A stretch of DNA of 35,123 nt. Source: a bacterium. GTDB taxonomy: Bacteria > Bacillota_I > Bacilli_A > RF39 > UBA660. The notes under the pieces are model-generated. The model searched no databases. It worked only from the letters and a program-made list of their open reading frames with translations, and was not told the origin of the DNA. Location: NCBI GenBank assembly GCA_030531425.1, contig JAUNNO010000010.1, positions 1 through 35,123 of the forward strand. Reading direction: 5' to 3'. The number at the start of each line of letters is the position of its first letter. The stretch's first letter is position 1. This document shows, piece after piece, positions 7,693 through 35,123 of the stretch. The position numbers and the translations under genes were made by a program.

Positions 7693-10227
7693 TTATTTTA
7701 TTTCCTTTTTTAAATCATAAATAATATTTAATGCATCCATTGGAGTTATATTTAATGGATCTAAACTTTTTAACTTTTCTTCTACTACAGATTTAGTTGG
7801 CATTACAAGATCAAGTGGTAAAGATTCTTGTATTCTAATATCTCTTTTCTTTTCTTTTGATTCATAAATACTTAAAATATCTGTTGCTCTTTTAATCAAA
7901 GTATCTGGTAATTTAGCTAGTTTAGCTACATGTATACCATAACTTTTATCTATACTTCCGTCTTCTATCTTATGCAAGAATGTTACAGTACCATCTTCTT
8001 CTTTAGCTGATACATGTACATTTTTTAATCTTTTTAAATTTTTTTCTAAATCTGTTAATTCATGGTAGTGTGTAGAAAACATTGTTTTACATTTTATTGT
8101 ATCGTGTATATATTCTATTATTGCTTGAGCAAGTGCCATACCATCAAAAGTTGCAGTACCACGACCCAATTCATCAAATAATATAAGTGAAGAATCTGTT
8201 GCATTTTCTATGGCATTATTTGCTTCATTCATTTCAACCATAAATGTAGATTCCCCGCTTACTAGGTCATCTGATGCGCCAATACGAGTGTATATTGCAT
8301 CAAATACAGGAAGTGTTGCAGAACTTGCTGGAACGAAACATCCTATTTGTGCCATTATAACTGTTATAGCAAGTTGACGCATATATGTGCTTTTTCCTGC
8401 CATATTAGGTCCTGTAATTAACAATATATCTGTATTTTTTTCCATTACTATATCATTAGATACATATTCGCAGTCTAAAACTTTTTCAACTACAGCATGT
8501 CTATTATCTTTTACATTAATAATCTTTTCATCAGTTATAGTGGGTCTTATATAATTATTTTCCTCTGCTACTGTTGAAAATGATTGAAGTACATCTATTT
8601 CACTAATTACCCTAGCTACTTTTTGTAATCTTGGAATATAATCTTTTATTTTATCTCTAATACTTATAAATAATTCATACTCTAAATTAATTATTTTTTC
8701 TTCTGCATTTAAAATTAATGCTTCCTTTTCTTTTAGTATTGGGCTTATATATCTTTCGCAATTAGATAGTGTTTGTTTCCTTTCATATCCATACTCATCT
8801 TTTACTAAATAAGTTAGTCCCTTAGATACTTCTATATAGTACCCAAACACCTTATTATAGCCAACTTTTAAAGTTTTAATACCTGTTTTTTCTTTTTCTT
8901 CAGCTTCAAATTTAGCAATAAAATCTTTACCATTAGATCTAATAGATTTTAACTCATCTAATTCTTTATTATAACCTTCTTTTATTAAATATCCTTCTTT
9001 TATTCCAACTGGAGGATTCTCATAAATAGAATTTTCTAATAAATCATATAAATCATTTAAAGTCTCTATATCTTTAAACTTAATTGAAGCTAGTATATTT
9101 TTTATATCTGGTAGAACACTCAAAGAACTCTTTAATTGTAATAAATCTCTTGCATTAGCATTTCCAAAAGCTATTCTTCCACTTAAACGTTCCAAGTCAT
9201 ATACTTCATAAAGTAAATTTTTTAAATCTTCTTTTAATATAAATTCTTCTAATAAAGTTTCTACTACATCATATCTTTTATTTATTTCAATCTTATCAAT
9301 TAATGGATTTTCAATATAATCTTTAAGCATGCGTGATCCCATTGCTGTTTTTGTTTTATCAAGTAGCCAAATTAATGAGTATTGTCTTTGTTTTAATCTT
9401 AATGTTTCTGTAAGTTCTAAATTTCTTTTAGTATGAATATCCATTTTTAAATAATTTTTATTCTCTTTAACTATAGCTTTTTGTAAATGAGAAAGATTAG
9501 TCATTTTCATATTACTTACATATGTTATTAAGTGTTTAATTGTTTTAATTAATCTATTATCAGTTATATCTTCATAAATATATTTATACTCATCAATATC
9601 TAATATATCATCAAAAATAGATACTGATATTTTAAATTGATTTTTTAGTATACTAACTATATTTTTATCAAAATTAGAATCAACAACAACCTCATTTAGT
9701 CCTATACTAATAATTTCACTTATTATTTTGCTTTGACTATGACTGATTAAACTAGTATATATAACACCAGTTGATATATCTGTATAACTTATCGAATATA
9801 AATGATTAAAATCTATTATATTACCTATATAATTAAACTCATTTTCCTTTAACATATCTGAGTTCATTAAAGTACCTTTACTAATTATTTGTATTAAACC
9901 TCTCTCAACTATACCCTTAGCAGTCTTGGGATCTTCTAATTGTTCACATATACCTATTTTATAACCTTTTTCAACCATCTTTTCTATATATATATCAACA
10001 GCATGATAAGGTACCCCACACATAGGGACTTTATCATCTAATCCAGCACTTCTTCCTGTTAATGTTAATTCTAATTCTCTAGAAGTTATTATAGCATCCT
10101 CAAAGAATACCTCATAAAAATCTCCTAATCTATAAAATATTATTACATCTGGATTTTCTTTTTTTACACTAATATAATGTCTCATCATAGGTGAAACACG
10201 ACTTAGATCGACTTCAGACATTTTCAT
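7693..10227 (-). CDS. mutS: DNA mismatch repair protein MutS
   Basis: MutS recognises mismatches and small loops and recruits downstream repair factors. The mismatch-reading FxE motif lies in GDFYEVF (Phe37, Glu39). Connector, lever and clamp domains follow. The ATPase has Walker A GPNMAGKST (about 605-613), the Walker B region ILFDELGRGTATFDG and FSTHYHELTDL. A C-terminal helical segment completes about 844 residues, normal for MutS1. The longest frame opens with a GTG at 10236 that lies inside the AGGTGG ribosome-binding site. The ATG at 10227, six bases after it, is the likely start. No mutL is present nearby. Confidence 0.97.
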   Translation of the reverse strand: MKMSEVDLSRVSPMMRHYISVKKENPDVIIFYRLGDFYEVFFEDAIITSRELELTLTGRSAGLDDKVPMCGVPYHAVDIYIEKMVEKGYKIGICEQLEDPKTAKGIVERGLIQIISKGTLMNSDMLKENEFNYIGNIIDFNHLYSISYTDISTGVIYTSLISHSQSKIISEIISIGLNEVVVDSNFDKNIVSILKNQFKISVSIFDDILDIDEYKYIYEDITDNRLIKTIKHLITYVSNMKMTNLSHLQKAIVKENKNYLKMDIHTKRNLELTETLRLKQRQYSLIWLLDKTKTAMGSRMLKDYIENPLIDKIEINKRYDVVETLLEEFILKEDLKNLLYEVYDLERLSGRIAFGNANARDLLQLKSSLSVLPDIKNILASIKFKDIETLNDLYDLLENSIYENPPVGIKEGYLIKEGYNKELDELKSIRSNGKDFIAKFEAEEKEKTGIKTLKVGYNKVFGYYIEVSKGLTYLVKDEYGYERKQTLSNCERYISPILKEKEALILNAEEKIINLEYELFISIRDKIKDYIPRLQKVARVISEIDVLQSFSTVAEENNYIRPTITDEKIINVKDNRHAVVEKVLDCEYVSNDIVMEKNTDILLITGPNMAGKSTYMRQLAITVIMAQIGCFVPASSATLPVFDAIYTRIGASDDLVSGESTFMVEMNEANNAIENATDSSLILFDELGRGTATFDGMALAQAIIEYIHDTIKCKTMFSTHYHELTDLEKNLKRLKNVHVSAKEEDGTVTFLHKIEDGSIDKSYGIHVAKLAKLPDTLIKRATDILSIYESKEKKRDIRIQESLPLDLVMPTKSVVEEKLKSLDPLNITPMDALNIIYDLKKEIK

Positions 10228-28020: not shown

Positions 28021-28111
28021 TAAAATCCATTAATTACACTAGATTACCAACAATTCCTTTTAAAAAGTAAATGTCTATAATAAATATGCTTTTGTAATTT
28101 AGTCTTTCAAT

Positions 28112-28168
28112 AGTTTTAGTCAAGGACAAGACGCTAGTCTTGTTTATCTTGATCCTTGACTAAAAACT
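28112..28168. promoter_or_regulatory. Branched 57-base dyad
   Basis: Outer arms AGTTTTAGTCAAGGA and TCCTTGACTAAAAACT pair with one bulged base. Between them, CAAGAC-GCTA-GTCTTG (28127-28142) forms an inner hairpin. No U-tract follows on the minus strand. Confidence 0.6.
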
Positions 28169-28189
28169 TTTATCATATAATATTTTTTG

Positions 28190-28215
28190 GCAAAAGTGCA
28201 GTCTTGTACTTTTGC
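28190..28215. promoter_or_regulatory. Hairpin sharing a loop sequence with the 28112 dyad
   Basis: The stem GCAAAAGT/ACTTTTGC has a ten-base loop that reads ACAAGACTGC on the minus strand. ACAAGACT also occurs in the 28112-28168 dyad, so alternative pairing between the two is possible. Confidence 0.5.
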
Positions 28216-28245
28216 TTATTTACTATATAATACTTTTTTTATCAT
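28216..28245 (-). CDS. Possible nine-codon leader peptide
   Basis: On the minus strand AAAGGAG is followed directly by ATG and the peptide MIKKVLYSK-stop. The stop codon abuts the 28190-28215 hairpin. The arrangement resembles leader peptides of antibiotic-inducible attenuators. However, there is no visible promoter between it and the preceding terminator, the Shine-Dalgarno spacing is very short, and the ABC-F gene has its own promoter downstream. It may be chance or a relic. Confidence 0.25.
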   Translation of the reverse strand: MIKKVLYSK

Positions 28246-28285: not shown

Positions 28286-28510
28286 CTTGTATTTTTAATA
28301 TTTCACGCTTATGCGTTCTAATTTTTTCTCGCTTTAATTGCAGCTTGTACCGCGTCCTTTATTGGGGATAGATGAACTACCTATCTATTTGCTAAAAAAA
28401 TAATTATTATTTTAAAATTAAAACACCTTCATCGTTAATACAATATGATTGTACCATCAAAGTTTTATAAATACAAATTCATCATTTGCTTCTTTACTTT
28501 ATTAAAATTT

Positions 28511-29353
28511 TTAATTTGTTTTATAACTCTTTTTCCTAATATTATATCTATTTTCAACATCTTTATAATAACTTTCTTTAGTTTCTAAAGATATAATTGT
28601 TTTATTTATATAATATTTAGCTAATTCTACCATTTCTTTTAATATTTTTAACTTATAAATAGCACATTTAGTTGAATTAGTAGATAAACTACTATCATAT
28701 TTTAAATAATGATATCCTACATAATCTATTGCCTTTAATTTACTAGATTTTGCTATAAGATACGGAGTTATAGCAAAATCTTCTAGTACACGCACATTAG
28801 GATACTGCACATCATTAAAGAGTTCTCTCTTTATTGCATAAGTCCATGGAAACGTATTTATATTTCTTTCGCCAAAACACCAAAGCAAGAAGGCTTCTTC
28901 ACCTGATATAATATCTGTTGGATTACAAGAATATCTATATAAATTTTTTCCTTGCTCATTTATAATTTGTTTTTCACCTACTGGTTCTATAACGTTTTGA
29001 AATCTTATAATATCTAAATCTAAAGTATAATATTTGTCTATTTCATGTAATAATGAAACCTCAACATAGTCATCCGGATCAACAGTCAACAAATACTTGC
29101 CTTTAGCTTTAGAAATAAGGATATTTCTTGTTTCTCCAATACCTAAATTTTCTTCGTTTCTATATACCATTAATTTATCACAAGATTTTTCTATTTCTTT
29201 TAAATATTCATATGATCCATCAGAAGAATAATCATCTACAACAATAATTTCATAATCAGAAAAATTTTGATTAATAATTGTAAAAAAATATTTCTTCAAA
29301 CATTCTATTTTATTATAAACTGGAACCATTATTGTATATTTAATCATCATCAT
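28511..29353 (-). CDS. Family 2 glycosyltransferase
   Basis: This 280-residue GT-A-fold protein has YTIMVPVYNKIECLKKYF at the start and EIIVVDDYSSDGS (about 35-47). The NLGIGETRN segment and the metal-binding TVDPDDYVE (Asp92, Asp94) follow. The second half (LEDFAITPYLI) contains the ED motif typical of GT2 enzymes. It transfers a sugar from a nucleotide sugar; the acceptor is unknown. No membrane helices are seen. It starts inside the end of the upstream radical SAM gene (14-base overlap). Three ATG codons in a row follow AGGAG, and the second or third has better spacing than the first, so the true N-terminus may lack one or two Met. It is the last gene of the nine-gene operon. Confidence 0.9.
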   Translation of the reverse strand: MMMIKYTIMVPVYNKIECLKKYFFTIINQNFSDYEIIVVDDYSSDGSYEYLKEIEKSCDKLMVYRNEENLGIGETRNILISKAKGKYLLTVDPDDYVEVSLLHEIDKYYTLDLDIIRFQNVIEPVGEKQIINEQGKNLYRYSCNPTDIISGEEAFLLWCFGERNINTFPWTYAIKRELFNDVQYPNVRVLEDFAITPYLIAKSSKLKAIDYVGYHYLKYDSSLSTNSTKCAIYKLKILKEMVELAKYYINKTIISLETKESYYKDVENRYNIRKKSYKTN

Positions 29354-30146
29354 TCTCTCCTAAGCAAAATGTTTTATTACATAGAACACATTCTCCAAAA
29401 TCATCTATAATTTTCTTATTATATTCTTCTTTTTTATTTACTAAATTTATAGCAGCCAAAATATCCCCAGAAAGTATTAACTTGAAAAAATCATCTTTCA
29501 ACTTTTTTTCAATATTATCGAAACTATCATTAATAATATTACCTAAAGGTGGAATACACTTCCAAGTGCATATATACACATCACCATTAACATCCAAAAA
29601 CAAATAAGGCGTATTAATTGTTTTGGTAGTATTCATACAATTTCGTTTTTCAATATACTTATCATTCAAATTTTTGGCTTTTCCTATATTTACAACTTTA
29701 TCTTGTACTAAAAATTTAATAACTGGTGTATTGTATGATTCATATTGCTTTAAGTTACGAACCTCTTCTAAATCTACACCGCCATCTTTATGAAATAGAT
29801 CATCTGAAAATCTTATAGAGTCAACACCCATTTTTTTAAGTTCAATAAATAGTTCTTTAGAATTTTTATTCTTATAAAAATAAATACCATTTGATTCTAA
29901 TTCTATTTTTATTTCTTTATTTTTTTCTTTTATCCTTTTGATAGTATAAAAAAGTAATTCTTTTACTAAAAAGATTTCTCCTCCAGTTAAAGTAACAGAT
30001 ATAGTACTATTTGGCATCTTTTCAACTATTTTATCAATATCTTCAAAAGACATTGTTTTTTTGTTTTTATTACTATTTAAATTCATATAACAATGTGAAC
30101 AATTAGCATTACACATCTCAGTTAAAATAATATTAAATTTATACAT
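29340..30146 (-). CDS. Radical SAM protein with C-terminal SPASM-like cysteines
   Basis: This 268-residue protein has the [4Fe-4S]/SAM-binding motif C-x3-C-x2-C at the start (TEMCNANCSHCY, Cys12, 16, 19). It also has the SAM-binding TLTGGEIFL (about 53-61) and IELESNGIYF. The C-terminal part has YLFLDVNGDVYICTWKCIPPLGNI, like the strand before a SPASM or twitch cluster, then CVLCNKTFCLGEN. Such proteins act on peptides, sugars or other small substrates. It lies nine bases after the larger radical SAM gene, with AGGTGAAG before its ATG. The reaction cannot be predicted; its partner genes suggest one shared pathway. Confidence 0.87.
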   Translation of the reverse strand: MYKFNIILTEMCNANCSHCYMNLNSNKNKKTMSFEDIDKIVEKMPNSTISVTLTGGEIFLVKELLFYTIKRIKEKNKEIKIELESNGIYFYKNKNSKELFIELKKMGVDSIRFSDDLFHKDGGVDLEEVRNLKQYESYNTPVIKFLVQDKVVNIGKAKNLNDKYIEKRNCMNTTKTINTPYLFLDVNGDVYICTWKCIPPLGNIINDSFDNIEKKLKDDFFKLILSGDILAAINLVNKKEEYNKKIIDDFGECVLCNKTFCLGENDDD

Positions 30147-30154
30147 ATCTTCAC

Positions 30155-31504
30155 CTAATAAGTCAACATAAACTCGACATCATTTAAATCATTTAACATT
30201 GATAATTGTGCTCTAATTAAATCCATAACCTGATTATCATAAATAGAACAGCAAGAAGAACATTTTTCTGGAACACATTTTCTAATTCTACACCCGTTTT
30301 CTCCATCGATTATTTCTTCTAACTCTTTTTCTTTACCTAATAATTTCCCATAATGAGAATCTTTAATATCTTTTATTTTTTCCCAATGAGTACAAATAAC
30401 TAAATTAGGCCCATATAGAATTGGTGATACTAACGAACTATAACATTGACTTGGCTTATAATTATCATCTAATTTTCTGTCATAATACATATAATCTAAT
30501 TTGCTAGGAACTTGAATATGCATTAAACCATATTTTTTATAATTTTCATTTAATTGTTTTAATTCTAAAACTGCCTCTTTATTTAATTTATATTTTTCAA
30601 TTTCTTCTCCTTCAGGAACTAGGATTTTTACTATTTGAAAACTATCTGCTCCAATTTCACCTAATCTTTTAGCAGTTTTAATATACTCTCCAACATTTTC
30701 TGGTCTCATACAGGTTCTGGCGCCTATCATTAATTCTCCTTCTCTACCATATTTTTTTCTTCTATCAACTAATTTTCGAATTAAATTCATTGCGTCATCA
30801 TAAGTAAATTCTTGATTTTTATTTTTTTGAATAGAATATTTAGAATACGCATCATTACATACACCAGGAAAACTAATTCTAACATAATATGCATATTTTG
30901 CTAAAGCATCTATTGTTTCTTCTGTCAACCTTGAACCAGAAGAAATATAAACACATCGCATATTACATTCTTCTTTTGCATATTTTATTAATTCTGTCCT
31001 ATAAGGATACATATCAGGATTACCCTCGCCAGACATTTCAAATCTCAAACTATCTAATCCCCTTTTTTTTGAATAACGAGCTATTTCTTTTAATACCTTT
31101 TTATAATGATTAATATCAAAATTTGTAAAATTCAAATTATCCTTCGCCCATTTTCTAGTATCCACAGCAAGGCAGTCTTTGCAATTAAAATCACAAAAAT
31201 TATAATCATGCGAATCTAATGACATAATAGGAAAATTTGAAATTTCACCCTTCATTTTCATTAACATAATATTAGCATAATCTAAAATGCTTAAAGGATA
31301 AAAATGTTGATTATGAATCAGGCTCAATTCAAAAATTACTTTTTGAGTACTTTTCTCTACTAATATCAAACTTTTAGCTTTCATCAGTCTTTCTTTATTA
31401 TTCAAGCAATTAATACTTCTATTTATATATTCATTAGCCTCATTTTCTATATGTTTATCAGGGATTGAATATACTACATTATTTTTATCAATCGCTATTT
31501 TCAT
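30155..31504 (-). CDS. Radical SAM protein, 449 residues, with cysteine-rich C-terminus
   Basis: An N-terminal domain of about 90 residues precedes the radical SAM core. The cluster motif is YNFCDFNCKDCLAVDTRKW (Cys104, 108, 111). FEMSGEGNPDMYPYR replaces the usual GGEP motif, and ISSGSRLTEE and VRISFPG are barrel strands. Near the C-terminus, CYSSLVSPILYGPNLVICTHWEK and CRIRKCVPEKCSSCCS supply up to seven cysteines for auxiliary clusters. I could not assign it to a named subfamily. The start is the ATG at 31504; a TTG one codon upstream is unlikely. It overlaps the end of the preceding DUF402 gene by 17 bases, so translation is coupled. Confidence 0.85.
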   Translation of the reverse strand: MKIAIDKNNVVYSIPDKHIENEANEYINRSINCLNNKERLMKAKSLILVEKSTQKVIFELSLIHNQHFYPLSILDYANIMLMKMKGEISNFPIMSLDSHDYNFCDFNCKDCLAVDTRKWAKDNLNFTNFDINHYKKVLKEIARYSKKRGLDSLRFEMSGEGNPDMYPYRTELIKYAKEECNMRCVYISSGSRLTEETIDALAKYAYYVRISFPGVCNDAYSKYSIQKNKNQEFTYDDAMNLIRKLVDRRKKYGREGELMIGARTCMRPENVGEYIKTAKRLGEIGADSFQIVKILVPEGEEIEKYKLNKEAVLELKQLNENYKKYGLMHIQVPSKLDYMYYDRKLDDNYKPSQCYSSLVSPILYGPNLVICTHWEKIKDIKDSHYGKLLGKEKELEEIIDGENGCRIRKCVPEKCSSCCSIYDNQVMDLIRAQLSMLNDLNDVEFMLTY

Positions 31505-31970
31505 CAAAATTCACCACTTTCTTAATTTTTAAAATCAAATTTTTCATATCTAAATTTAATTTCATAATTTTTTCTAAACTGTGCTTTAAATATCCATCAT
31601 CATTAATCAACTTTTCTCCATGATATACCTTATCTTTACCATTTACCTTTACATATGACAAACCTAAATCTTCATAAACCGGTATATTATCTTTAATATC
31701 ATTATTTTTAGTAACTGTATAATATTCTTCTATAATATTTAAACTACTATCTAAAAATAAGCGACATATATAATAATCATTTAAATTAACTATTTCAACT
31801 ATATAATAATCATTATCTATTAATTTAATTTCTTCTCCAAATTCCACAAGAGAAAAAGGATTTACAATTTTTACAATTTTTTTTATTATAATTACTTCAT
31901 TATCATTTTTATATAAATATAACTTATATTCACTAACATCTCTAAGATATGTACTTGAACTATACTTCAT
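31488..31970 (-). CDS. DUF402-like protein B, divergent paralogue
   Basis: This 160-residue protein is homologous to the gene just upstream: TYLRDVSEY matches TYLRHVSEY, then NPFSL, IDNDYYIVEI, LFLDSSLNIIEEYY and IPVYEDLGL. These follow the DUF402 (FomD/Ntdp) beta-barrel, whose members hydrolyse nucleotides or nucleotide adducts using several acidic residues. This copy lacks the C-terminal LDEEELENAY-type block and has KSL/KIM-rich helices instead, so it may be non-catalytic. It starts 11 bases inside the end of DUF402 copy A, with AAAGGAAT before its ATG. Stop codon TGA. Confidence 0.7.
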   Translation of the reverse strand: MKYSSSTYLRDVSEYKLYLYKNDNEVIIIKKIVKIVNPFSLVEFGEEIKLIDNDYYIVEIVNLNDYYICRLFLDSSLNIIEEYYTVTKNNDIKDNIPVYEDLGLSYVKVNGKDKVYHGEKLINDDGYLKHSLEKIMKLNLDMKNLILKIKKVVNFDENSD

Positions 31971-32469
31971 CTAATAATTCCTTTACATCTAGATTCAAGT
32001 ATTTATTACTATGATTTTTTATTTCATCTAATAATTTATTTTTTGTTTCAATAGCAATATTATATGTATCAGAATCTATTAAATTATTTTGATAAGCATT
32101 TTCCAATTCTTCTTCATCTAAAACTTCTACGTTATTGTTTGTAATAGTAATATCTAAATATAAATCATCATAATAAGGTATTTTACTATCTAGATCAATT
32201 CCACAACCATTTGTTATATCAATATAACGTTCAATTAAATTTTTTTCACTATCTAAGTATGCTCTAATAGCATAATTCTCATTTTTGGGTAATATTTCTA
32301 TTATATAATAATTATTATCTATTACTTTTAAACCATTACTTAAAATAAACGGATCTGTTTTTATTATCTTTTTCTTTACCAGATAATAATCATCATTTGT
32401 AAAAGAAAATTCTATTATATATTCACTAACATGTCTTAAATATGTTTTACTTAATAATTTTTTTCTCAT
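31960..32469 (-). CDS. DUF402 (FomD/Ntdp-like) protein A
   Basis: The frame is open from 32586, but the first 39 residues are hydrophobic run-off over the preceding gene. The likely start is the ATG at 32469 after AAAGGAAGAG (169 residues, MRKKLLSKTYLRHVSEY). It fits DUF402 well: DNNYYIIEILPKNENYAIRAYLD, ERYIDITNG, then IPYYDDLYLDI (about 98-107), VEVLDEEELENAYQNNLI (about 114-131) and a final helix. DUF402 proteins known include S. aureus Ntdp (nucleoside tri/diphosphatase) and FomD (hydrolysis of a cytidylyl phosphonate in fosfomycin synthesis). Here the acidic residues are kept, so it is probably an active metal-dependent phosphohydrolase. It overlaps the neighbouring genes at both ends. 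Confidence 0.82.
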   Translation of the reverse strand: MRKKLLSKTYLRHVSEYIIEFSFTNDDYYLVKKKIIKTDPFILSNGLKVIDNNYYIIEILPKNENYAIRAYLDSEKNLIERYIDITNGCGIDLDSKIPYYDDLYLDITITNNNVEVLDEEELENAYQNNLIDSDTYNIAIETKNKLLDEIKNHSNKYLNLDVKELLDEV

Positions 32470-32938
32470 ATTTTTTACACTCTTCCTTTCCATATAAATC
32501 ATATCCTTTATTGCATAATAAATTATAATATAGATAATCATAATAAGAATTTGTTGGGTTAGGAATAATAACCTCTGACCATCCATAATTTAAATATGAG
32601 GCTATAGCATTATTAATTACACCGTTTAAATGGTCATCACAATAAACAATTTTATTTTGACCACAATGCATCACTTGCAAAGCATGCAATCTCATAATCA
32701 TGTAGTCTTTATAATCTTTAATAAAATCATTAATATAACTATTATAATAATTTCCCTCAATAAATTTTTTTGCCATTTCTTCATGAAAACGTGCATATTC
32801 TTTAGTTAACATTTCTCCAGTTTGTAATATATATCCCTTCGGAATATATAATTCCCTATTATATCTATCGTTTGGATACTTACTATTATCAAATTTTAAA
32901 CTGTTTCCTATTATATATATTCCATTATTTTTTTTCAT
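32447..32938 (-). CDS. Hypothetical protein, 163 residues
   Basis: I do not recognise this protein. It is soluble, with no signal or membrane segment. It has an N-terminal strand-like part (GIYIIGNSLKF), IPKGYILQTGEMLTKEYARFHEEM, a YNSYINDFIKDYKDYMIMRLHALQVM helical region, KIVYCDDHLNGVI and YGWSEVIIPNP, and a Lys/Glu-rich end. Aromatic residues are frequent. The ATG at 32938 follows AGGTGA. It lies between the phosphoesterase (10-base gap) and DUF402 copy A (23-base overlap), so it belongs to the operon and is probably required for its function. Short length and lack of catalytic motifs would fit a small partner or binding protein, but that is a guess. Confidence 0.7.
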   Translation of the reverse strand: MKKNNGIYIIGNSLKFDNSKYPNDRYNRELYIPKGYILQTGEMLTKEYARFHEEMAKKFIEGNYYNSYINDFIKDYKDYMIMRLHALQVMHCGQNKIVYCDDHLNGVINNAIASYLNYGWSEVIIPNPTNSYYDYLYYNLLCNKGYDLYGKEECKKYEKKIIK

Positions 32939-32948
32939 TATAAATCAC

Positions 32949-33491
32949 CTATAAATTAATATTTTCAATAATATTATCATTAATATCATATATTGTTATT
33001 GTTTTATTTTCATAGATAGCATACGTAGGTGCATAATTATTTTTAGGTAAAGAAATTGAACCTACATTTATATATGTCATATCCTTATCTTTTTTTATAA
33101 ATGGAATATGTTCATGACCATAAACTAATATTCCTTTGTGATTAAATTTTCTATTTTTTTCAAAACTATATTCATTTCCATGTGTAATATATATATCTAA
33201 TCCATCGGTATTAATTAAGGAAAGTCCACTGCAAATTGGAAAATCACTAGCCTTTACATCTACGGAACTATCACAATTTCCCATCATACATATTAATTTA
33301 TCTTGATGTTTTGTTAAAAAATCAAAAACTTTTTTACTACTAATTTTATATTTATTATCATATGATGGCCCAGCATAATATAAGTCACCCAAACATACTA
33401 ATTTATCTATTCTTTCGTTTTTTATTTTCTTTTCTATTATATTAAGATTAGTTGCTATACCATGTATATCCGAAATAAATAAAATTTTCAC
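32949..33491 (-). CDS. YfcE/MJ0936-family metallophosphoesterase
   Basis: This 180-residue calcineurin-like phosphodiesterase has every metal-binding motif: SDIHG (Asp8, His10), CLGDLYYAG (Asp36), MMGNCDS (Asn72), YITHGNEY (His104) and VYGHEHIPF (His126, His128). INVGSISLP follows. Family members cleave simple phosphodiesters in vitro and mostly lack a known substrate. The start codon is GTG, sharing a G with the TAG stop of the upstream kinase-like gene (TAGTG), with AAGGTGA as ribosome-binding site. It sits in an operon of nucleotide-related folds, so a nucleotide or sugar-phosphate diester is a reasonable substrate guess. Confidence 0.9.
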   Translation of the reverse strand: MKILFISDIHGIATNLNIIEKKIKNERIDKLVCLGDLYYAGPSYDNKYKISSKKVFDFLTKHQDKLICMMGNCDSSVDVKASDFPICSGLSLINTDGLDIYITHGNEYSFEKNRKFNHKGILVYGHEHIPFIKKDKDMTYINVGSISLPKNNYAPTYAIYENKTITIYDINDNIIENINL

Positions 33492-34309
33492 TATATCACC
33501 TTCTTTTTTACTTTATAATCCAATTTATATTCTTCATCATTAACATTAACATACAGTTCGTTATACAATATTTTATAATTTATATTATTGTTATTCAAAA
33601 AATTAAATAATCCATTATAATACTTTTTTACCGTTGTATAGTCGGATAAATCTTTATTCTCTAGAAAAAGTCTTCTAAGTAAATACTCTTCAAATTTTAG
33701 TAACATTAATAATTTATCATTAAAACTATTAATGTTTAAAAAATCAAATTCATCAACCTTACGCCTAATAAATTCTCTATTAGCTGTTAATTTATCATTA
33801 AAACTATCACTAACAATAATATTTATAATATTATCTAAAGATGCATCTGTATTCAAACAATTATCAATAAATATAGCATTAAAATCGCTTAAATATGAAA
33901 AATTTTCTGTATGAAATCTATTAAATACATTTTTTGTAGTGTCATTTCTTGTTAATACCCTTAAATATCTTGTTGATAAATCACAGTCTACATATAATTT
34001 TAAAATATTAAAACCAGTAACTTTCTCTATTTTTTTTGTATCACCAGAAACAAAAATTGTATTATTACTAATATTATTTTTTAAAATTCCATAATAAAAT
34101 CCGTTTCTTATTTTATACTCAACAAAATCATTTTTAGCAATATATTCTTCAAATTTTTCCTTAGTTATAAAGAAATAATCTATCCCATCTATTTCCCAAT
34201 CTCTAATTGGTCTTGTAGTATAACCAACATTTCTTTCGAAACCTAAATGATATAATTTATTTGCTAAATATGATTTCCCAGCACCATTTTTACCTATAAT
34301 CTCTATCAT
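33491..34309 (-). CDS. Guanylate-kinase-like P-loop protein with a novel C-terminal half
   Basis: This protein has 272 residues. The N-terminal about 165 resemble guanylate kinase: P-loop GKNGAGKS (6-13), VGYTTRPIRDWEIDGIDYFFITKEKFEEY (about 28-56) corresponding to the GMP-binding TTRxPRxGExxGxDYxF, and then VEYKIRNGFYYGI. DLSTRYLRVLTRND fits the lid. Ordinary Gmk is about 200 residues and ends soon after; here about 100 more residues (about 170-272) are helical and unlike any domain I know. It might phosphorylate a nucleotide analogue, or use the fold for another phosphotransfer as PhnN does. It ends one base into the phosphoesterase gene. AAAGGAG precedes its ATG. Confidence 0.78.
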   Translation of the reverse strand: MIEIIGKNGAGKSYLANKLYHLGFERNVGYTTRPIRDWEIDGIDYFFITKEKFEEYIAKNDFVEYKIRNGFYYGILKNNISNNTIFVSGDTKKIEKVTGFNILKLYVDCDLSTRYLRVLTRNDTTKNVFNRFHTENFSYLSDFNAIFIDNCLNTDASLDNIINIIVSDSFNDKLTANREFIRRKVDEFDFLNINSFNDKLLMLLKFEEYLLRRLFLENKDLSDYTTVKKYYNGLFNFLNNNNINYKILYNELYVNVNDEEYKLDYKVKKKVI

Positions 34310-34313
34310 ATTA

Positions 34314-35123
34314 CTACTCCTTTATCAGATACACACTGGCAGTTTCATTGCTTTTCAATATATTTTCTACAGTATATAACAAATCATTTTCAAATATGGA
34401 AGCACAATCATCACATTCAGCACCACATTTACTTGTAATATTTTTATACTTATTAAAATCGAAATAGTTTGAACTCCAGTTTTCAAAATCATTAAATATC
34501 TTATTAACTTTGCACGGAATAATTTTATCTCTAAATAAATATGGTTTCATATAACAAGAATAACATTTTTTGGAATTTCTTTCATCCAATTCAAATCTAG
34601 GATAATATAATGTTGTCAAATCTTTGACGCTTATAAATTTAGTACAACTATAATTATTATATTTATTCTCTAAAGTTCTAATTAAATTTTGTACATTAAT
34701 ATCAACCTTTTCATTATTGTGATCAATCGGTAATAATTCCTTAGATACCTGAAATATATCAACATTCAATTTAATAAAATCATTAATCATTTTTTCATAT
34801 AATAAAACTCTATGTATGCTTAAGTATGTCTTAATATGTACTAATGCATTATTTGATTTTAATTGTTGAATCAACAATAATTTTTTTAAAAAATCTTTAT
34901 ATAAATTATCTGTTAAATCACTTGGTAAAAATATTTTAAAATAAGTAACAAATTTAAATTTTTGTACTAAAAAATTAGGAATATTTATTAAATTTTTAAT
35001 ATTTAGACTTACCAAAACACTTTTATTATAAAAATATTCTATAATTTCACCCATTTTTATTAATTCTGCTTCACTATAATTTTTATTAATAAATATTTCA
35101 ACAGCTTTTAAATATTTAAATCT
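34314..35123 (-). CDS. Radical-SAM/SPASM-like protein, C-terminal part (runs off the window)
   Basis: The frame stays open from the stop at 34314 to the window edge at 35123 (269 codons). An internal ATG lies at 35054 but has no good ribosome-binding site, so I treat the gene as partial. The visible part has alternating strand/helix segments like the second half of a radical SAM barrel (VLVSLNIKN, YFKIFLPSDL, ALVHIKTYLSIHR, VDIFQVSKELL). It ends with cysteines in CYSCYMKPYLFRDKIIPCKVN and KCGAECDDCASIFEN, resembling a SPASM cluster and the C-terminus of the 449-residue radical SAM protein in the same operon. The C-x3-C-x2-C motif would lie beyond the window. Confidence 0.65.
   Translation of the reverse strand, partial: RFKYLKAVEIFINKNYSEAELIKMGEIIEYFYNKSVLVSLNIKNLINIPNFLVQKFKFVTYFKIFLPSDLTDNLYKDFLKKLLLIQQLKSNNALVHIKTYLSIHRVLLYEKMINDFIKLNVDIFQVSKELLPIDHNNEKVDINVQNLIRTLENKYNNYSCTKFISVKDLTTLYYPRFELDERNSKKCYSCYMKPYLFRDKIIPCKVNKIFNDFENWSSNYFDFNKYKNITSKCGAECDDCASIFENDLLYTVENILKSNETASVYLIKE

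Follow-up and report, generated by a model that had tools for sequence, protein, structure and literature searches.

In fosfomycin biosynthesis a radical S-adenosylmethionine (SAM) enzyme, Fom3, is encoded in the same biosynthetic cluster as a DUF402 hydrolase, FomD. Like FomD, the DUF402 proteins Ntdp/SA1684 and Bph are nucleoside di/triphosphatases, and the DUF402 domain of RNase W has been shown to be a ribonuclease (PMC11602121). Here we describe a locus at which the two families meet again: an operon of nine genes at positions 28,511 to 35,123 of a 35,123-nucleotide contig (JAUNNO010000010.1 of GenBank assembly GCA_030531425.1; GTDB lineage Bacillota_I; Bacilli_A; RF39; UBA660). It encodes two radical SAM proteins (rSAM1 and rSAM2), a degenerate paralogue of the first (pseudo-rSAM) and a tandem pair of DUF402 proteins (A and B), together with a guanylate-kinase-like (Gmk-like) protein, a YfcE-type phosphoesterase, a 163-residue protein and a glycosyltransferase of family 2 (GT2). 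The window we analysed is the entire contig (C91 of the 98 that make up this 1.3 Mb assembly), so gene 1 of the operon lacks its start.

How does this locus compare with what has been described? Its likeness to the fosfomycin cluster lies in that pairing of a radical SAM enzyme with a DUF402 hydrolase; unlike that cluster, it has two DUF402 copies, one of them degenerate, and a degenerate radical SAM partner. A first-pass annotation, made from the sequence alone, had cited fosfomycin as its precedent for a nucleotide-linked small-molecule pathway. The precedent is a weak one. DUF402-A keeps its metal-ligand residues, but it is the only one of the pair to do so, and among the nine products neither Pfam nor NCBIfam gave a match to a phosphonate gene, a B12-binding domain or a B12-dependent radical SAM family. 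With the other DUF402 proteins, RNase W included, DUF402-A shares the Pfam family and retains acidic metal-ligand positions; the difference here is a tandem pair whose B member has lost most of them. A different precedent is Dph1–Dph2, an experimentally established radical SAM heterodimer in which the cluster of one subunit is described as regulatory, not catalytic (PMC11048331). Here too there would be two paralogous iron–sulfur (Fe-S) proteins, one catalytic and one supporting, although this is an analogy and no relationship is claimed, and the radical SAM chemistry of Dph1–Dph2 is non-canonical. YydG and the SPASM-type maturases share with rSAM2 a CX3CX2C motif and C-terminal cysteines. Prokaryotic viperins share the radical SAM core and are sometimes encoded beside nucleotide kinases; what sets the present operon apart from them is the degenerate paralogue that it encodes, together with SPASM-like cysteines at the C terminus. 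A literature search returned no paper combining DUF402 with radical SAM enzymes, nor one on the wider five-term gene set, in keeping with the earlier remark that no system with these genes has been described. The cluster is a radical SAM biosynthetic cluster of a kind known in general, the particular gene set of which we have not found described.

Radical SAM clusters are often a sign of unusual chemistry, and this one provides a new genomic setting for DUF402, the known roles of which span nucleotide hydrolysis and RNA cleavage. Its hosts belong to a family of uncultured gut bacteria, between whose genera the cluster moves. Compact, and with two catalytic/degenerate pairs of paralogues under purifying selection, it offers a case in which the idea of heteromeric radical SAM and DUF402 enzymes can be put to a direct test.

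A conserved operon that moves between genera

All nine open reading frames lie on the minus strand, and every junction either overlaps or leaves a gap of 10 bases or fewer (from gene 1 to gene 9, with gaps positive and overlaps negative: +4, -1, +10, -23, -11, ~-17, +8 and ~-8 to -14 nt), just as the first-pass annotation had it. A genome scan with rSAM1 found relatives at three loci, L006, L007 and L008, and the window's own genus yielded a further region, L009, in genome G003. Gene order is identical in L006, L007, L009 and L034, the last of which runs from gene 1 to gene 7 before its contig ends: pseudo-rSAM, Gmk-like protein, YfcE, a protein of ~145–165 residues, DUF402-A, DUF402-B, rSAM1, rSAM2 and GT2. 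There are embellishments. A methyltransferase gene sits between rSAM2 and GT2 in L009, a DUF4422-type gene follows GT2 in L007 (by Pfam) and L009 (by similarity of translations), and L006 has a NUDIX gene overlapping the gene 1 start; the operon may therefore contain further genes beyond the nine. In the variant cluster at locus L031 a 281-residue protein of no known family (7868–8713) takes the place of YfcE and the 163-residue protein, a second A-type DUF402 is present, and DUF402-B and GT2 are absent. This composition defines the core of the cluster as pseudo-rSAM, the Gmk-like protein, two DUF402 proteins, rSAM1 and rSAM2; GT2 is accessory.

Counting the variant, the cluster is found in five further genomes, four genera in all. 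We sampled 386 genomes of the family for co-occurrence. Seven carry rSAM1 (6 of 150 genera, a tally among the more complete genomes) and five carry pseudo-rSAM, all five being among the seven. With the window's genome excluded, 4 of 4 pseudo-rSAM genomes fall among the 6 of 385 that have rSAM1; simple counting puts the chance of this at ~2e-8, with the caveat that the genomes are not independent. The relatives are labelled as uncultured Bacilli, 'Candidatus Faecisoma' and uncultured Tenericutes, which places the hosts in a lineage of small-genome gut Bacilli. In class- and phylum-wide samples the window's genome was the sole one to yield rSAM1 (at E 1e-20) or the 163-residue protein (at E 1e-4). 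Phage, plasmid and viral collections held no relatives of rSAM1, and viral contigs, the only one of those three collections searched for the 163-residue protein and pseudo-rSAM, held none of these.

Evidence that the cluster has crossed between genera comes from comparing it with its hosts. The window comes from genus g1 and L006 from another, g245, and from position 28360 to 35123 the window matches L006 at 92% by blastn, the common block stopping at 28360. Within it, YfcE, Gmk-like and rSAM2 genes are 91–93% identical in DNA and rSAM1 genes 95.2%. For rpoB, compared between the window's genome (G000) and G863, of another genus, the figure is 77.3%; at fourfold-degenerate sites rSAM1 and rpoB of these two genomes are 79% and 51% identical. 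Within a genus the order is reversed: rSAM1 72.2% and rpoB 83.7% for G000 and G003, 76.2% and 86.2% for G863 and G1122. The cluster has been transferred laterally between genera as a block. Selection has meanwhile held on to every part of it. Between the window and L006 the ratio of nonsynonymous to synonymous substitution rates (dN/dS) is 0.08–0.30 across all nine genes (rSAM1 0.08, 163-residue protein 0.10, pseudo-rSAM 0.16, DUF402-B 0.21). Purifying selection therefore acts on every gene of the nine, and even the degenerate copies are being kept and are not decaying. That the operon is one conserved, tightly packed, transferred unit is well supported, and the earlier proposal that its genes act together is backed by both the recurrence of the neighbourhood in four genera and its transfer as a block. 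Table 1 lists the genes.

Table 1. Features of the operon and its left boundary (positions in the window)
Feature	Position	Strand	Remarks
Gene 1, pseudo-rSAM (degenerate radical SAM paralogue)	34314..35123	-	5' end cut by contig end
Gene 2, guanylate-kinase-like P-loop protein	33491..34309	-	PF00625; extra C-terminal region of ~100 residues
Gene 3, YfcE-type metallophosphoesterase	32949..33491	-	NF006988 (PRK09453)
Gene 4, 163-residue protein without recognised family	32447..32938	-	53–94% identical in relatives
Gene 5, DUF402-A, 169 residues	31960..32469	-	PF04167; metal-ligand residues present
Gene 6, DUF402-B, 160 residues	31488..31970	-	Paralogue of DUF402-A; most metal-ligand residues gone
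Gene 7, rSAM1, 449 residues, ATG at 31504	30155..31507	-	PF04055; C-terminal cysteine-rich (SPASM-like) region
Gene 8, rSAM2, 268 residues	29340..30146	-	PF04055; C-terminal cysteines; nearest named family YydG
Gene 9, GT2-family glycosyltransferase	28511..29353	-	PF00535; accessory member
Left limit of block common to window and L006	28360..28511	.	blastn match ends here

In G003 the cluster is near genes whose translations read as an IS110-type transposase and a serine recombinase. The right flank of the cluster in L009 (9487–13476) suggests an integration site: by reading, it has a serine recombinase, a gene like that of a replication initiator and a short open reading frame similar to the end of a penicillin-binding protein. 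In L006 helix-turn-helix (HTH) and ParB genes precede the cluster, 70% identical to counterparts in G000. Those counterparts, on contig C88 of G000 (24000–36504, L036), head a gene set that reads like a conjugative element.

Relatives of rSAM1 also occur without an adjacent pseudo-rSAM, at L008, L032 and L033. At L033 (328–12290) the relative shares an island with pairs of aminotransferases, ATP-grasp enzymes and NUDIX proteins, and with an ABC importer, an APH-like kinase and a P-loop kinase-like protein. At L032 it adjoins a related GT2 gene. At L008 (10001–15040) it is followed by proteins of 245 and 793 residues without a Pfam match and then by a Phage_30_3-family protein.

Two radical SAM enzymes and a degenerate paralogue

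The first-pass annotation had allowed for up to three radical SAM proteins. Two of them are intact: PF04055 is matched above its cut-off of 29.5 bits by both rSAM1 (39.7) and rSAM2 (54.2), and each has the CX3CX2C motif of the superfamily (C104/C108/C111 and C12/C16/C19, respectively). Five further cysteines of rSAM1, C354, C371, C415, C418 and C419, are invariant along with the motif among seven homologues. The predicted structure of rSAM1 is a radical SAM barrel (pLDDT 63), the fold matches of which are tied between viperin, SkfB, SuiB, BlsE and DesII (Z ~13.4–14.1). Searches of solved structures with rSAM1, pseudo-rSAM and the 163-residue protein returned nothing significant.

The third protein is another matter. 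The product of gene 1 is truncated here, and its full-length relative in L006 has 363 residues. The gene 1 product can be aligned with rSAM1 from end to end (hhalign probability 98.2%, E 5.5e-14), and an rSAM1 profile retrieves pseudo-rSAM in its own genomes with E values of 5e-9 to 6e-13. The CX3CX2C motif expected at the first barrel strand is absent from the aligned homologues, the segment that bears it in rSAM1 being missing altogether, and the protein falls outside the radical SAM superfamily on that count. Its C-terminal side has five conserved cysteines, equivalent to C281, C284, C298, C331 and C334 of L006. A look-alike motif in the L006 protein (C327/C331/C334) was set aside: it is C-terminal, and L007 and L009 do not share its first cysteine. 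Judged from these alignments, gene 1 encodes a paralogue of rSAM1 that is most probably inactive as a radical SAM enzyme. An auxiliary Fe-S cluster may still be bound, but cleavage of SAM is not to be expected.

The DUF402 pair

Of the two DUF402 proteins in the first-pass annotation, A is recognised by Pfam (PF04167, 45.2 bits against a cut-off of 23.9) and B, with no Pfam match of its own, is recognised by its alignment with A. The 208-residue reading frame first assigned to DUF402-A is over-extended; its relatives begin at an ATG equivalent to position 32469, which gives 169 residues. DUF402-B copies are 29–40% identical to DUF402-A of L006, and the two types separate in a tree with support of 99/98.

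A profile of DUF402-A has as its only significant matches in the Protein Data Bank (PDB) the DUF402 domains of FAU-1/RNase W. In RNase W the conserved metal ligands are N404, D420 and D424, with D437 a further one (PMC11602121). We mapped these by alignment to the RNase W chains, taking the 3-residue offset between chain and published numbering from the motif. On this mapping each of the four positions is acidic in DUF402-A (in YIDI, DDLYLDI and VLDEEEL). RNase W lacks an acidic residue at the second metal site, whereas DUF402-A has one, like the phosphatases. In DUF402-B of the window only the D420 equivalent is left, those of D424 and D437 having been lost, and other DUF402-B copies retain one ligand equivalent or none. 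DUF402-A alone therefore has the metal-ligand residues of a FomD-type protein, and a predicted intact metal site sits beside a predicted degenerate one.

The remaining members

Pfam backs the folds that had been assigned by eye to the GT2, Gmk-like, phosphoesterase, DUF402-A and two radical SAM products, and NCBIfam concurs for all of these but DUF402-A; pseudo-rSAM, the 163-residue protein and DUF402-B have no significant match in Pfam or NCBIfam. The Gmk-like protein matches PF00625 at 59.4 bits but scores 63.4 bits against the guanylate kinase equivalog TIGR03263, under the cut-off of 160.45, so its acceptor may not be GMP. Its P-loop (GKNGxGK) and the pattern TTRxxR...E....DYxF are invariant in five homologues. 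Gene 3 belongs to the YfcE family (NF006988, 148.1 bits, cut-off 117; Pfam metallophosphoesterase, 76.3 bits). The 163-residue protein is, as first described, of no recognised type, with no significant match in Pfam, NCBIfam, PADLOC or PHROG. It is 53–94% identical among relatives; its predicted structure (pLDDT 42) was not used. A weak match in G988, inside a larger reading frame that looks like a phosphoesterase, was put aside as probable chance. Gene 9 is a GT2 enzyme (PF00535, 84.8 bits, cut-off 23.3), 58–60% identical to its relatives in L007 and L009 and 38% identical to the one in L032.

What might the operon make?

The reading we favour, with a little less than even confidence, is that of a mobile operon for one cytosolic small-molecule pathway, the substrate of which would be a nucleotide or a compound linked to one. 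Substrate, product, order of steps and heteromers are what we infer. The Gmk-like protein would phosphorylate a nucleotide-type substrate, which radical chemistry would then modify, through rSAM1 with pseudo-rSAM and through rSAM2. DUF402-A/B and YfcE, and in L006 the NUDIX protein too, would cleave or trim a nucleotide or nucleotide-linked intermediate. Catalytic rSAM1 and a structural or regulatory pseudo-rSAM would form a heteromer in the manner of Dph1–Dph2, and DUF402-A and DUF402-B another, with the same division of labour. GT2, and the DUF4422 protein where present, would supply an optional last step, adding a sugar or moving the product onto a glycan. The company that rSAM1 relatives keep elsewhere argues for such a pathway: a P-loop kinase-like gene with two NUDIX genes in L033, GT2 in L032.

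Several points weigh against it. The word nucleotide is drawn from family resemblance, and kinase-like and phosphoesterase folds act on many substrates. The radical SAM fold matches of the predicted structure look generic and name no substrate. Parts are replaceable, L031 doing without YfcE, the 163-residue protein and GT2 and having a second A-type DUF402 in place of B. Heteromer formation, finally, is suggested by analogy. The pathway proposed in the first-pass annotation is still the best reading, as a candidate that family resemblance suggests. A bolder version, in which gut Bacilli horizontally trade a modified-nucleotide metabolite (an antibiotic, signal or antiviral) made by a radical SAM heteromer with one subunit lacking the SAM-binding cluster and a matching catalytic/degenerate DUF402 heteromer, strikes us as unlikely in its entirety.

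The glycosyltransferase invites a different story, one in which the radical SAM enzymes make an unusual nucleoside diphosphate (NDP) sugar for GT2 and DUF4422 transferases to attach to a wall polymer or capsule. In favour of such a surface glycan, the window and L006, L007 and L009 all have GT2, two of these loci add a DUF4422-type gene, rSAM1 in L032 lies beside a related GT2, and one of the tied fold matches, DesII, is a radical SAM enzyme that works on NDP-sugars. Yet the L031 core has no transferase at all, and the operon has no gene for NDP-sugar synthesis, a flippase or a polymerase, and we think this account improbable. We would put rather lower still the idea of a ribosomally synthesized and post-translationally modified peptide, with rSAM2 and rSAM1 as its maturases and the other genes tailoring it. 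The nearest named family of rSAM2 is indeed the YydG peptide epimerase, PDB matches such as 8ai3 included, and the best fold matches of rSAM1 include SuiB and SkfB. But rSAM2 is far below the YydG equivalog cut-off (TIGR04078, 77.4 bits against 300), the packing of the genes leaves no room for a precursor gene inside the operon (the rest of the genome was not searched for precursors), none of the nine is a recognised leader-binding or export gene, and neither kinase-like nor DUF402 proteins would be expected.

A patchy, horizontally moved cluster, adjoined by integration genes in L009 and by HTH–ParB genes like those of integrative and conjugative elements in L006, could also be a mobile anti-phage cassette making a modified antiviral nucleotide, as prokaryotic viperins with nucleotide kinases do. 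The best PADLOC match of both radical SAM proteins is pVip (40 and 45 bits), and there is a nucleotide-kinase-like gene. Both proteins miss the viperin family cut-off by a wide margin (NF038283, 40.2 and 43.2 bits against 180), rSAM2 scores as high or higher with other radical SAM families, and no strong match to a known defence family emerged among the proteins tested; defence seems to us decidedly doubtful. Least probable of all, and very unlikely in our view, is RNA modification or processing, in which DUF402 would act as a ribonuclease, like that of RNase W, and an RNA would be modified by the radical SAM pair. The PDB matches of DUF402-A point that way. Against this stand the acidic second-metal-site residue, which DUF402-A shares with phosphatases and RNase W lacks, the failure to detect an RNA-binding domain, and a patchy presence that is hard to square with a core RNA function.

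A repeat beside the operon

No Rfam family was matched within the window. A repeat of ~180 bp lies at 28059–28238, upstream of an ABC-F gene, with a strong predicted RNA structure (z -5.3). Copies of 81–92% identity stand before unrelated genes on contigs C47 and C68 of the window's genome and in G009, and the repeat resembles a repeated palindromic element or a small mobile one.

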